Source of the DNA: Komarekiella atlantica HA4396-MV6
GTDB taxonomy: Bacteria; Cyanobacteriota; Cyanobacteriia; Cyanobacteriales; Nostocaceae
DNA: 64,000 nucleotides
Reading direction: 5' to 3'
Assembly (NCBI GenBank): GCA_019359395.1
Contig: JAHHHK010000014.1
Span: 62,001-126,000 of the forward strand
In this document: positions 21,386 to 55,938 of the stretch, one piece after another
How positions within the stretch are numbered: position 1 is the first letter of the stretch
How the letters are laid out: every line of letters starts with the position of its first letter
The notes under the pieces: model-generated
The model's database searches: none
The model's input: the letters and a program-made list of their open reading frames with translations, nothing else
Told to the model about the DNA's origin: nothing
Position numbers and translations under genes: made by a program

Positions 21386-21600
21386 GGAAAGGGAAAGGGG
21401 TAAGGGGGAAAGGGAAAAAACCATCCCCTTACCCTCTCTTACAAAGTTCTGAGCGGAGGAAGCCTCTCTTACAAAGTTCTGATCGGAGGAAACCTCCGCT
21501 CAGACTTTGCGCTCCGATCAGACTTTGCGCTTTAACCTTTTCCCCGTCTTCAGAGTCCCCAGTCCCCAATCCCCAATCCTCAGTCCCCAATCCCCAATCA
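21386..21600. repeat. Composite repeat between flv3 and flv1
   Basis: The gap contains a G-rich block (GGGGAAAGGGAAAGGGGTAA), two copies of CTCTTACAAAGTTCTGA followed by hairpin halves (GGAGGAAACCTCC) and AGACTTTGCGCTCCGATCAG, then TTTAACCTTTTCCCC and STRR units (CAGTCCCCAATCCCCAATC). The last unit ends 3-5 bp before the flv1 ATG and replaces the usual ribosome-binding region. Confidence 0.85.
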
Positions 21601-24827: not shown

Positions 24828-25187
24828 ATTCTAGAGATGCTTATTCCCTCTACGACTTACGCAAAAAACCTCTCAAAATCTCATTTCTCCGTGACCTCTG
24901 TCTTGAGAAGTTCTGATGCCTGTCTTGAAAAGTTTCCTACGGCGGGAAACCCGCCTACAGAACTTTTCGCTGCGGCGGGCTGCACCAACGGATAGCGCAG
25001 CGTAAAGCCTGCGGCATGGCTACGCTTAGAGCGAGTCTTGCCTACGGCACGCTTTGCGAACGAGCGTCGGAAACCTCCGCTCAGACTTCTCGCTGTGCCT
25101 CTGTGGTAGCCTACGGCAAGCCGCTCCGCGTCTACGATTTTCCGTAACCCATGCGTAAGTCCTGTATTCTAAAGATGCTTATTCCCT
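24828..25187. mobile_element. MITE-like element with flanking direct repeats
   Basis: An element of about 308 bp (24854-25161) is bounded by the inverted ends GACTTACGCA and TGCGTAAGTC. It is flanked by 22-bp direct copies of ATTCTARAGATGCTTATTCC(CT) at 24828-24849 and 25166-25187, with one mismatch. Inside are palindromic modules (GAAAAGTTTCCTACGGCGGG, CCTACGGCAAGCCGCTCCGC) seen elsewhere in the window. It encodes no transposase. The right flanking copy overlaps the stop codon of the bilin lyase gene. Confidence 0.7.
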
Positions 25188-27904: not shown

Positions 27905-28016
27905 AAAATTGCAAGATTAAAAATTCTTTTTGAATTTTAAGAGAAGTCTGAGCTTCAGCTTCCAATCATCAGAACTTCGGTAATTTGGCATTTTTAATTG
28001 GAGCATAGCGATAGTA

Positions 28017-40266: not shown

Positions 40267-40339
40267 ATTTTAGTCATTAGTCTTTACGACGACTCATGAC
40301 AAAGAGCAAAATTAAATAAGCAAAGCCAAAGATAGCAGG

Positions 40340-40530
40340 TGCCAATGGCTTAATATCCTGCCGAGGTTAAAGTTTTTATTGTCTGAAGTACCACCCCCAA
40401 AAGGCGTGATAACTGTGGCATGAAGAATATTACTTTTAAACCCCGGCTGAGATAGCTGGGGTTTATTGTTTTGAGTTGCTCAGAAAAAGACACCAAGTAT
40501 GGAGGATGGTTTTAAGGAGGTGAAAAAAGC
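40340..40530 (+). promoter_or_regulatory. rplJ leader, likely L10 autoregulatory leader
   Basis: The 264-bp gap between rplA and rplJ holds CCTGCCGAGGTTAAAG, a part resembling the L10-binding leader found in front of bacterial rplJ, then a strong hairpin at 40438-40464 and the Shine-Dalgarno AAGGAGGTG. By the known control of this operon, free L10(L12)4 binds the leader and lowers its own synthesis. The assignment rests on position and structure. Confidence 0.6.
40438..40464 (+). terminator. Attenuator or terminator hairpin before rplJ
   Basis: AAACCCCGGCT pairs with AGCTGGGGTTT (11 bp, one G-U) around the loop GAGAT, and ATTGTTTT follows. It may terminate rplA transcripts or act as the attenuator for rplJL. 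Confidence 0.65.
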
Positions 40531-52844: not shown

Positions 52845-53094
52845 TTTGCCCTGGGCTGGGCTCTAAGCGTAACGATGCCATTAGCTGTCTATTAAATTTA
52901 GGTACTTACAATTTTTATCATCTACCAAAAGTAAGATGTTTGCTGTAAGTTAACTGAATGTATTGCGCTCACTTTTAAATCACATTTGTTTCCAATACTG
53001 GATGTACAGGTCAACTTTAGTAATTAGCTAGAACTATAAAAACAGCTAATAGTCTTAATTTACCCTGTTAGTGTTAAATATAAGGGCGAATAAG

Positions 53095-55938
53095 ATGACA
53101 GCAACACCAAAAGAGATAATTCGGTCAAGTCAATGGCATCATCTATCTGCACAAGAAATAACTCGGCATTTAGATACAAATTTAGAAACAGGTTTAACCT
53201 CTGCTGTTGCGGCAAAAAAACGTGACCATTTTGGTACAAACGAACTCAAGAGCAAACCTGGAAAAAGTCCATTACTACGATTTCTCTTACAATTTCACCA
53301 ACCGCTGCTGTACATCTTATTAATTGCGGGTGCAATTAAGGCAATACTTGGGCAATGGGTAAATGCTGGGGTGATTTGGGGCGTAACTCTAATTAATGCC
53401 ATTATTGGTTTTGTGCAAGAATCTAAAGCAGAAAGTGCGATCGCAGCTTTAGCTTCTGCTGTGCAAACCAATGCAACCATCATTCGCAACGGTAAAAAGG
53501 TGCAACTATCTTCCACAGAGTTAGTACCGGGGGATGTGGTACTACTTACTTCTGGAGACAAAGTACCAGCTGATTTGCGTTTAGTGCAAGTACGGAATCT
53601 GCAAGTTAATGAATCAGCACTGACGGGCGAATCAATTGCAATTGAAAAAAACACGCAACTGCTCAACCTAGATGCACCCTTAGCAGAACGCACCAACATG
53701 GCTTATGCTGGTAGCTTCGTGACATTTGGCACTGGCAAGGGTATTGTTGTCGCTATTGGAGATGCCACAGAAACCGGGCGGATTTCCCAGCTAATGGAGC
53801 AAGGAACCAGCTTAAAAACTCCATTAACCCGCAAATTTGACAAATTCAGCCGTACATTGCTGTACATAATTCTAGGGATAGCTGCATTCATGTTTGCAGT
53901 TGGGCTGGGATACGGCTACTCTTGGACAGAAATGTTTGAAGCTGCGATCGCTTTTGCTGTGAGTGCCATTCCCGAAGGATTACCGGCTGTGGTGACGGTT
54001 ACACTAGCAATCGGTGTTTCCCGCATGGCGCGGCGTCATGCGATCGTTCGTAAGTTACCAGCAGTGGAAACCCTCGGCGGTGCGACTGTTATCTGTTCTG
54101 ACAAAACTGGTACGCTAACCGAAAACCAGATGACTGTACAGGCAATTTATGCCGGGAATAGACAGTATAAAGTCACTGGTGTAGGTTATGCTCCACAAGG
54201 AGAAATTTTATTCGATGAACAACCAGTAAACAGGGATAATTCTTTTGCTCTTGAAGAATGTATAAAAGCCGGATTGCTGTGTAATGACTCGTACTTAGAA
54301 AAAAAGGATGAGCAATGGCAAGTTGTTGGCGATCCTACTGAGGGAGCATTAATAGCTGTTGCCCAGAAAGTTGGATATAGCCGCAGCAGCTTAGAACAGG
54401 AAATGCCCAGATTAGATGTCATCCCGTTTGAATCTGAGTTCCAATACATGGCAACTCTGCATGAAACTTCGTCATTTATCATTGGTCACACTCCACATGA
54501 AGCTGTTAGGGCATCTACGTCATTGGGAAATGACAAAGCGCAAAGTCTGAGCGCCGGCTTCCGGCGATCAGAACTTTGTAAGAGAGGACAACGAGTTATT
54601 TTCGTTAAAGGTTCGGTCGAGGCAATCCTGAAACGTTGTCAGCAGATGTTAGATGCAGAGGGAAACCTTACGTCTGTGGATGCAGACATGGTACATCAGG
54701 AAGTTAATGCAATGGCGAATCTGGGTTTACGGGTGCTAGCGTTTGCCAAGAAATCTGTGCCTGTAGAGACGTTGCATCCAACGTCTCTACAACATGCAGA
54801 TATCGAAAATGATTTGATTTTCTTAGGATTGCAAGGGATGATCGATCCGCCTCGAACAGAAGCAATCAAAGCGGTGCAGGCCTGCCAAGAAGCTGGAATC
54901 CAAGTCAAAATGATTACAGGCGATCATGCGGTAACTGCACGGGCGATCGCTCAAAGTATGGGCTTCAACAAAAACGGCGAAGTTCTGGCTTTCACAGGAA
55001 GCGAACTTGCGCGAATGGAAAAATCAGAACTCACCACAGCTATAGAAGATGGGGCGGTATTTGCTCGTGTTGCGCCAGAACAGAAACTCCGAATCGTCGA
55101 AGCATTACAATCCAAAGGCGAAGTCGTGGCGATGACGGGGGATGGTGTCAATGATGCACCCGCCCTTAAACAGGCAGATATTGGTATTGCAATGGGAGGT
55201 GCTGGTACGGAGGTAGCCAAAGAAGCCTCTGATATGATTTTGACCGATGATAATTTCGCCTCCATAGAAGCAGCAGTTGAGGAAGGGCGAACGGTTTATC
55301 GGAACTTACTCAAAGCGATCGCCTTTATTCTACCTGTCAACGGCGGTGAATCAATGACGATTTTGATTAGCGTATTGCTGGCTAGAGAATTACCAATCTT
55401 ATCTTTACAAGTTTTGTGGCTAAATATGGTTAATTCCATCGCCATGACTGTACCTTTAGCCTTTGAGCCAAAATCTGAACGGGTAATGCAGCAACCACCG
55501 CGTAACCCCCGCGAATCATTGCTTTCCCCAAGTTTAGTCAAGCGCATCCTAGCAATTTCTGTCTTTAACTGGATTTTGATTTTTGGCGTATTTGAATGGA
55601 TACGACAAACTACAGGAAATCTCGCTCTAGCCCGGACAATGGCAATTCAAGCTTTAGTAGCAGGAAGAATTTTTTATCTTTTAAGTATTAGTCAATTAGG
55701 AAGTGCTGTTATTGCTAAACTTCGAGGAATTAGACAGAAAATTAACGATGCCTCAGCAATTGGAATTGGAATTGCTTGTACTGTAATTTTGCAGATAATT
55801 TTTAGTCTATGGAACTTGATGAATAGCTTATTTTCTACAGCACCACTGAACTTAAATCAATGGTTAATTTGCTTACTTGTTGGGTTGCCAATGGTTGTAG
55901 TATCCGCGTTAGTCAATCGTTTTGATCCTCTTGATTGA
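53095..55938 (+). CDS. Cation-transporting P-type ATPase (PMCA/SERCA-like)
   Basis: This 947-aa P2-type ATPase has an N-terminal cation-ATPase domain, TGES in the actuator domain, SAIPEGLPAVVTVTLAIG in M4, the phosphorylation site CSDKTGTLTENQM, MITGDHAVTARAIA, and GDGVNDAPALKQADIGIAMG. It pumps Ca2+ or another cation. The ATG at 53095 is chosen; an upstream GTG gives 8 more residues. Two in-frame repeat insertions lie in the nucleotide-binding domain: residues about 480-498 (KAQSLSAGFRRSELCKRG) and 557-566 (VETLHPTSLQ). The domain should still fold if they lie in loops. Confidence 0.93.
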   Translation: MTATPKEIIRSSQWHHLSAQEITRHLDTNLETGLTSAVAAKKRDHFGTNELKSKPGKSPLLRFLLQFHQPLLYILLIAGAIKAILGQWVNAGVIWGVTLINAIIGFVQESKAESAIAALASAVQTNATIIRNGKKVQLSSTELVPGDVVLLTSGDKVPADLRLVQVRNLQVNESALTGESIAIEKNTQLLNLDAPLAERTNMAYAGSFVTFGTGKGIVVAIGDATETGRISQLMEQGTSLKTPLTRKFDKFSRTLLYIILGIAAFMFAVGLGYGYSWTEMFEAAIAFAVSAIPEGLPAVVTVTLAIGVSRMARRHAIVRKLPAVETLGGATVICSDKTGTLTENQMTVQAIYAGNRQYKVTGVGYAPQGEILFDEQPVNRDNSFALEECIKAGLLCNDSYLEKKDEQWQVVGDPTEGALIAVAQKVGYSRSSLEQEMPRLDVIPFESEFQYMATLHETSSFIIGHTPHEAVRASTSLGNDKAQSLSAGFRRSELCKRGQRVIFVKGSVEAILKRCQQMLDAEGNLTSVDADMVHQEVNAMANLGLRVLAFAKKSVPVETLHPTSLQHADIENDLIFLGLQGMIDPPRTEAIKAVQACQEAGIQVKMITGDHAVTARAIAQSMGFNKNGEVLAFTGSELARMEKSELTTAIEDGAVFARVAPEQKLRIVEALQSKGEVVAMTGDGVNDAPALKQADIGIAMGGAGTEVAKEASDMILTDDNFASIEAAVEEGRTVYRNLLKAIAFILPVNGGESMTILISVLLARELPILSLQVLWLNMVNSIAMTVPLAFEPKSERVMQQPPRNPRESLLSPSLVKRILAISVFNWILIFGVFEWIRQTTGNLALARTMAIQALVAGRIFYLLSISQLGSAVIAKLRGIRQKINDASAIGIGIACTVILQIIFSLWNLMNSLFSTAPLNLNQWLICLLVGLPMVVVSALVNRFDPLD
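54533..54587. repeat. Dispersed hairpin repeat inside the P-type ATPase gene
   Basis: GCGCAAAGTCTGAGCGCCGG, CTT, CCGGCGATCAGAACTTTGTA and AGAGAGG. It is the reverse complement of the module at about 21461-21512 (flv3-flv1 gap), except that the stem GGAGG/CCTCC has become GCCGG/CCGGC. It is in frame. Confidence 0.85.
54763..54790. repeat. GTAGAGAC hairpin repeat inside the P-type ATPase gene
   Basis: GTAGAGACGTTG-CATC-CAACGTCTCTAC, a 12-bp perfect stem with a 4-nt loop, read in frame as VETLHPTSLQ. Related copies are at 24776, 56995 and 58599. Confidence 0.9.

Follow-up and report, generated by a model that had tools for sequence, protein, structure and literature searches.

The segment at positions 54533-54587 of the window (the whole 64,000-nucleotide stretch of DNA that was analysed) is most probably, with a probability of about 0.8, a copy of a tiny mobile repeat, non-autonomous and of the SDR type, inserted in frame in a P-type ATPase gene and copied via a folded single strand. 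The 48-bp unit forms a hairpin with bulges and at most 17 pairs and is present in about a hundred copies in its own genome. The host gene and the parts of its hairpin are the following:

53071-55938, + strand: cation-transporting P-type ATPase gene, host of the hairpin (open reading frame, 955 aa from GTG)
54477-54537 (approximate), + strand: older loop expansion (in L129 and L130; not in L052, L050, L053, L057 and L069), at whose end the hairpin landed in a TGACAA heptamer-like tract
54538-54585, - strand: 48-bp hairpin insert (48 bp extra relative to L129 between shared anchors, and covariance-model match)
54568-54578, - strand: 5' outer arm CAAAGTTCTGA (arm searches, alignment, model match)
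54561-54566, - strand: 5' inner arm CGCCGG, the variable stem (alignment, model match, stem counts)
54552-54557, - strand: 3' inner arm CCGGCG (alignment, model match, stem counts)
54541-54550, - strand: 3' outer arm TCAGACTTTG (arm search, alignment, model match)

The reading frame is kept across the insertion, as the first-pass annotation had reported. The encoded protein displays the Pfam domains E1-E2_ATPase, Cation_ATPase_N and Cation_ATPase_C, and its best solved relatives are the Listeria calcium ATPase lmo0841, followed by calcium ATPase type 2C member 1 and SERCA. The insert is exactly 48 bp long, although repeated letters leave 1-2 bases of doubt about its ends; because this length is divisible by 3 and one frame is open on the antisense strand, 16 codons were added and the insert was tolerated. 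The added residues are AQSLSAGFRRSELCKR, give or take one, and occupy positions of about 490-505 counted from GTG, or seven fewer if the protein starts from the ATG at codon 8; the in-frame insertion stands as first described, while the position then given (about 480-498) has to be moved and the flanking K and G then counted with the insert do not belong to it, since both are found in L129, which has no hairpin. The covariance model R1, built from 37 copies with the ATPase copy among them, matches 54538-54587 (- strand) with 80.9 bits, and the 55-nt hairpin folds with an energy of -22.7 kcal/mol (z -3.9), which none of 200 shuffles matched.

That the segment was inserted, as first proposed, is confirmed by two same-genus orthologues, L129 and L130 (91% and 90% DNA identity over the searched stretch), both of which have the older expansion but no hairpin; the inserted residues are also absent from the same loop in all the 80 other ATPases aligned (best 80 of 588 relatives). 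In the empty site of L129, AAATGACAA runs directly into AGGACAA. Measured between shared anchors, the excess of the window ATPase amounts to 48 bp over L129 and 51 bp over L130; it is thus the comparison with L129 that gives a clean difference. The alignment with L129 and L130 also indicates that the loop was already longer in the genus before the hairpin arrived; in the window ATPase it exceeds that of near relatives by about 30 residues (same best 80 of 588) and is missing from the best solved relative, the Listeria enzyme. A comparable loop expansion, with a different sequence, is found in Fischerella muscicola PCC 7414 (L048), and shorter ones in L061 and L111. In the predicted structure, which is only moderate overall (mean pLDDT 76, pTM 0.56), the insert lies between strands 459-466 and 507-514, in a stretch (469-505) with pLDDT below 50; the 16 added residues are therefore predicted to be disordered, in a floppy loop of the nucleotide-binding domain, and the hairpin insert most likely has no function for the ATPase.

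Other members and relatives of the family are found elsewhere in the window:

21433-21464, + strand: left half of an outer, interrupted copy in the flv3-flv1 gap (sequence, arm match)
21465-21512, + strand: inner 48-bp copy in the flv3-flv1 gap, with a GGAGG/CCTCC stem, nested in another copy (row L018; arm and model matches)
21513-21530, + strand: right half of the outer, interrupted copy (sequence, arm match)
24919-24970, + strand: diverged relative, 32.9 bits, whose outer arms are similar but whose inner hairpin differs (covariance model)
27944-27977, - strand: weak partial relative, 26.3 bits (covariance model)

The ATPase segment had been described as the reverse complement of a repeat module at about 21461-21512, and indeed arm searches and the covariance model (80.9 bits for the former, 78.6 bits for the match at 21463-21512, + strand) find both copies at these places with identical arms. 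The inner stems are, as claimed, GCCGG/CCGGC in the ATPase and GGAGG/CCTCC in the flv3-flv1 gap; the loops differ too (AAG versus AAA). The module in the gap is real, but it is made of two nested copies rather than one, since 21465-21512 interrupts an older copy formed by 21433-21464 and 21513-21530. The arms TCTTACAAAGTTCTGA and AAAGCGCAAAGTCTGA have three matches each in the window with at most 2 mismatches, against shuffle expectations of 0.02 and 0.07, and 0 of 100 shuffles reached three. The diverged relative at 24919-24970, which pairs similar outer arms with another inner hairpin, suggests that the inner module is exchangeable. Rfam at gathering thresholds gave three matches in the window and none at the ATPase or flv3-flv1 hairpins; an ordinary ribosomal protein L10 leader (RF00557) was found at 40308-40476.

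The repeat had been called dispersed, and its own genome holds at least 105 R1 members at E<=0.001, which is a lower bound, 150 of 4001 candidates having been scored. With 150 candidates scored per genome at the same threshold, the five genomes of the genus have at least 105, 94, 114, 105 and 44 members, and at E<=0.0001 members occur in 61 of 80 sampled genomes of the family. The loci fetched contained 338 matches; 94 of unsuitable length (interrupted or partial copies, or the same hairpin read from the opposite strand) were dropped along with 6 duplicates, leaving 238, of which 225 are exactly 50 nt long; decayed copies are under-represented, because the loci derive mostly from the best-scoring listed matches.

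Pairing is maintained across most copies. The inner stem is fully Watson-Crick in 190 of 225 copies versus 64.8 when the stem halves are shuffled, a comparison that takes the copies as independent though they share descent, and the outer stem is Watson-Crick over the nine pairs counted in 172 of 225. In alignment A1 (33 distinct rows) 90.2% of cells pair, and double-change cells number 44 versus 17.0 in shuffles (0 of 500 reach 44) and no more than 18 when the register is slid; pair 21-37 fails to pair in 28 of the 33 rows, as does pair 20-38 in 12. Among the five covariation measures one, the number of A1 pairs with any double change, is not above shuffles (5 versus 4.5; 276 of 500 reach 5), because the changes are concentrated in few pairs. 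Among the 190 fully paired inner stems GGAGG occurs 98 times, GCCGG 55, TAAGG 14, GGCGG 8, CGAGG 7 and CAAGG 3, together with three rarer types, and the main types form a chain of single pair changes, GCCGG-GGCGG-GGAGG-CGAGG-CAAGG-TAAGG, as would be expected of step-by-step compensation. The paired stem changes first noticed between two copies are thus confirmed. Copies with unpaired stem changes, which the first-pass annotation had named beforehand as speaking against its reading, do exist, but as a minority only: 35 of 225 lack a perfect Watson-Crick inner stem, or 21 of 225 if G-T is allowed, and they may be explained by decay of single copies. The loops are mostly AAG or AAA, while TTT or CTT, found in 28 of 225 copies, look like an inverted hairpin tip. 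A folded forward-strand RNA, expected to show as an excess of G-T over A-C mispairs, is not supported: the counts (33 versus 46 in 173 distinct copies, 17 versus 29 in 113) are not clearly unequal, so nothing points to it.

Comparison of filled and empty sites defines the inserted unit. The difference is exactly 48 bp in the ATPase (L129), MutS (L393), Mfd (L399) and SMC (L405 and L406); at a tnpB 3' end the net difference between L411 and the related gene L426 of another congener is 47 bp, which we read as a 48-bp insertion and the loss of one base close by. Different inserts occupy some of these places in further congeners (L396 for MutS, L400 and L401 for Mfd). At the SMC site the own genome has the hairpin, three other congeners are without it, and a second genome (L403) has a related, diverged hairpin with a GGCGG stem; therefore, this site was hit twice or changed in place. 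The Mfd loop has received different low-complexity in-frame inserts among congeners (L401, G000:C66, versus L149 and L398-L400), and in the own genome it contains a tract of the CCCCAATC/GGGGACT type without hairpin.

The same length emerges from the flanks: when 48 bp are removed, a flanking 7-bp repeat becomes continuous (6 or 7 of 7 positions) in 49 of 225 copies, versus a mean of 17.5 and a maximum of 26 with the two flanks taken from different copies; lengths of 44-46 give 0, 47 at most 15 and 49 at most 21. The copies are related, hence these counts are not independent, and the heptamer runs on through the junction in only about a fifth of them. Starts one to three bases in score about equally (48, 49 and 49 of 225). 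Single sites hint at a fixed 2-3-bp target duplication, whereas the heptamer-phase test favours the 48-bp difference. A rough text rule applied to 149 copies assigned 64 to a TTTGTCA-type context, 26 to a CTCTGCG type and 10 to nested positions, with 49 others. With the unit start placed at the third model position, the preceding base is C in 186 of 225 copies and the following one T in 205; by eye, most aligned copies start with TCTCTT or TGTCTT and end with CGC.

Genic copies are strongly depleted. Only 35 of 238 copies lie in an open reading frame (at least 20 codons on each side and at least 130 in all), versus 151-169 of 232-236 (65-72%) at six shifted positions; therefore, most genic insertions seem to be purged, while those in frame in loops survive. 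The number of distinct reading frames is 37, of which 29 were scanned with Pfam and the other 8 judged by resemblance; host names rest on Pfam domains, supplemented by solved relatives in the case of Mfd, SufD and the decarboxylase. With orthologues merged by eye, 18 Pfam-supported host-gene groups are obtained, and the element is antisense in 16 of them: ATPase, Mfd, SMC, SufD (three genomes), MutS, PLP decarboxylase (two), PutA-type protein (two), ABC ATPase, LeuA-like synthase, histidine kinase, glycogen-debranching enzyme, two TnpB groups, glycosyltransferase, MalK-like ATPase and type ISP restriction enzyme. The sense hosts are an NRPS module (L361) and an aminotransferase (L254, a weak 35-bit copy). 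A one-sided sign test gives 0.0012 for 2 of 17 and 0.0004 for 2 of 19, for groups that were formed by hand after the list was seen; left out of them were L266, L225, L359, L360, L250, L219, L040, L261 and L200 (sense, with the element outside the matched domain), as well as the reading frames opposite SufD in L020 and L269. Stop codons were rejected as the cause of the bias, because two or three frames are open in the forward direction in 180 of 238 copies and in the reverse one in only 121 of 238; a likely reason is that the purine-rich antisense strand encodes hydrophilic residues. Alignments to solved proteins break at the insert in Mfd, SufD and the LeuA-like protein, and the decarboxylase alignment passes through it without a clean break. 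In the PutA-type proteins L245 and L231, the linker between the proline dehydrogenase and aldehyde dehydrogenase domains carries further in-frame inserts in or beside the hairpin, which differ between genomes. Hairpins also occur in the IS605-type TnpB genes L327, L328, L319, L338 and L411, twice in one open frame in L327 and L328.

As for the mechanism, host or transposon machinery would copy the unit from a folded single strand; unpaired copies would not spread and only paired masters would, so that covariation of the stem would follow. The ATPase copy landed in the TGACAA tract within an already expanded loop of the nucleotide-binding domain, and the same in-frame gain occurred in MutS, Mfd, SMC, SufD and other proteins. 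Strong covariation, the location of most copies (203 of 238) outside reading frames and the proposal that STRR hairpins in cyanobacteria affect transcripts (PMC2670836) could be accommodated if the hairpin were kept for a host function, such as RNA stability, transcription pausing or a binding site, with covariation reflecting selection at each site. However, copies are found in unrelated contexts and within other copies, lie antisense inside genes in 16 of 18 host-gene groups, and vary in presence among congeners at the four sites compared, which makes a host function improbable; selection for copying competence accounts better for the stem changes. The two alternatives left by the first-pass annotation, a hairpin under selection and a family with several stem types, both hold, and, given the unrelated locations of the copies, the simplest target of selection is their capacity for being copied.

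A more serious competitor, still rather unlikely, is that copies spread because heptamer repeats recombine or switch templates, the hairpin having no dedicated means of moving. Such exchange could also put copies into heptamer tracts, the unit often lies in repeats with common short homology, and the TTT and CTT loops (28 of 225), which resemble inverted tips, fit template switching; however, the same 48-bp unit with constant ends is found in at least four repeat types (TTTGTCA, CTCTGCG, AAAATTC and CCCTTT), in addition to its own copies. Finally, the hairpin might be the right end of an IS200/IS605 element that moves with TnpA, as in one IS605-type tnpA-tnpB pair a copy overlaps the tnpB 3' end and several copies lie within TnpB genes. 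This is very improbable: only 3 of the 28 TnpB loci searched have a match at E<=0.001, and the copy of L411 is an insert relative to L426, a different terminal-looking hairpin being present downstream in both. The IS605 right end as source of the hairpin was thus rejected by the TnpB comparison, largely refuted for the L411 tnpB, and the hairpin is not at the ends of related IS copies; the L411 TnpA-TnpB pair appears to have got its end copy by insertion. As for copying via a folded single strand, four Y1 transposase matches are found in the own genome, and such an enzyme may act in trans as mobiliser.

The closest known elements are the SDRs of Nostoc punctiforme and its relatives, reportedly described by Elhai and colleagues in 2008 as tiny repeats of a cyanobacterial subgroup and judged mobile. 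They are said to be 21-27 nt long, often located in heptameric repeats, in some cases nested in themselves, and to share a common hairpin with compensatory mutations; that work is not known to report in-frame insertion in proteins. Set beside this description, the 48-bp unit is likewise a dispersed multi-copy hairpin with compensatory changes, part of whose copies lie in heptamer repeats or in one another, but it is longer than 21-27 nt; its inner part of about 24 nt could by itself be a candidate SDR. According to PMC4390886, SDR5 is inserted precisely in HIP1.

Rickettsia palindromic elements (RPEs) are described as 105-146 bp (PMC2229807) or about 150 bp (PMC10969869) long; they lie between genes as well as in frame within conserved proteins that are unrelated to one another (PMC2229807), and those of R. 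conorii are given as ending in CGTC (PMC3733652). The cyanobacterial hairpin resembles them in lying in frame within conserved protein genes, and differs in its 48 bp, in having no CGTC tag and in its frequent location in heptamer repeats. The REPs tagged GTAG or CGTC, including the cyanobacterial GTAG-12, -15 and -16, are short dispersed hairpins, some within replication and repair genes (PMC3733652); the 48-bp unit shares both traits, whereas aligned copies, by eye, have no GTAG or CGTC at their ends and no transposase is tied to the unit here. Cyanobacterial STRRs, usually 7-bp repeats according to PMC2670836, correspond to many landing sites of the unit, which are 7-bp tandem repeats of this kind; in contrast to the hairpin, however, the STRR is the host tract.

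Palindromes lying in frame in Rickettsia genes, like REPs lying in repair genes, are already established, while no report of in-frame hairpin insertion in cyanobacterial proteins was recognised among the matches listed in the open-licence literature. The family described here links tiny nested repeats, already known from cyanobacteria, with protein-coding palindromes, already known from Rickettsia, in bacteria with large genomes. A broader view can be offered only tentatively: a 16-codon mobile hairpin, copied via a folded single strand and entering heptamer repeats without target duplication, might repeatedly give rise to in-frame loops in core proteins of multicellular cyanobacteria, the DNA-maintenance proteins MutS, Mfd and SMC included, with heptamer tracts in loops serving as landing pads and hairpins then nesting within proteins. 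Since congeners carry exact empty sites, MutS, Mfd, SMC and the P-type ATPase provide natural 16-residue insertions whose age can be bracketed, and these sites form a clean set for testing how such small elements are copied.
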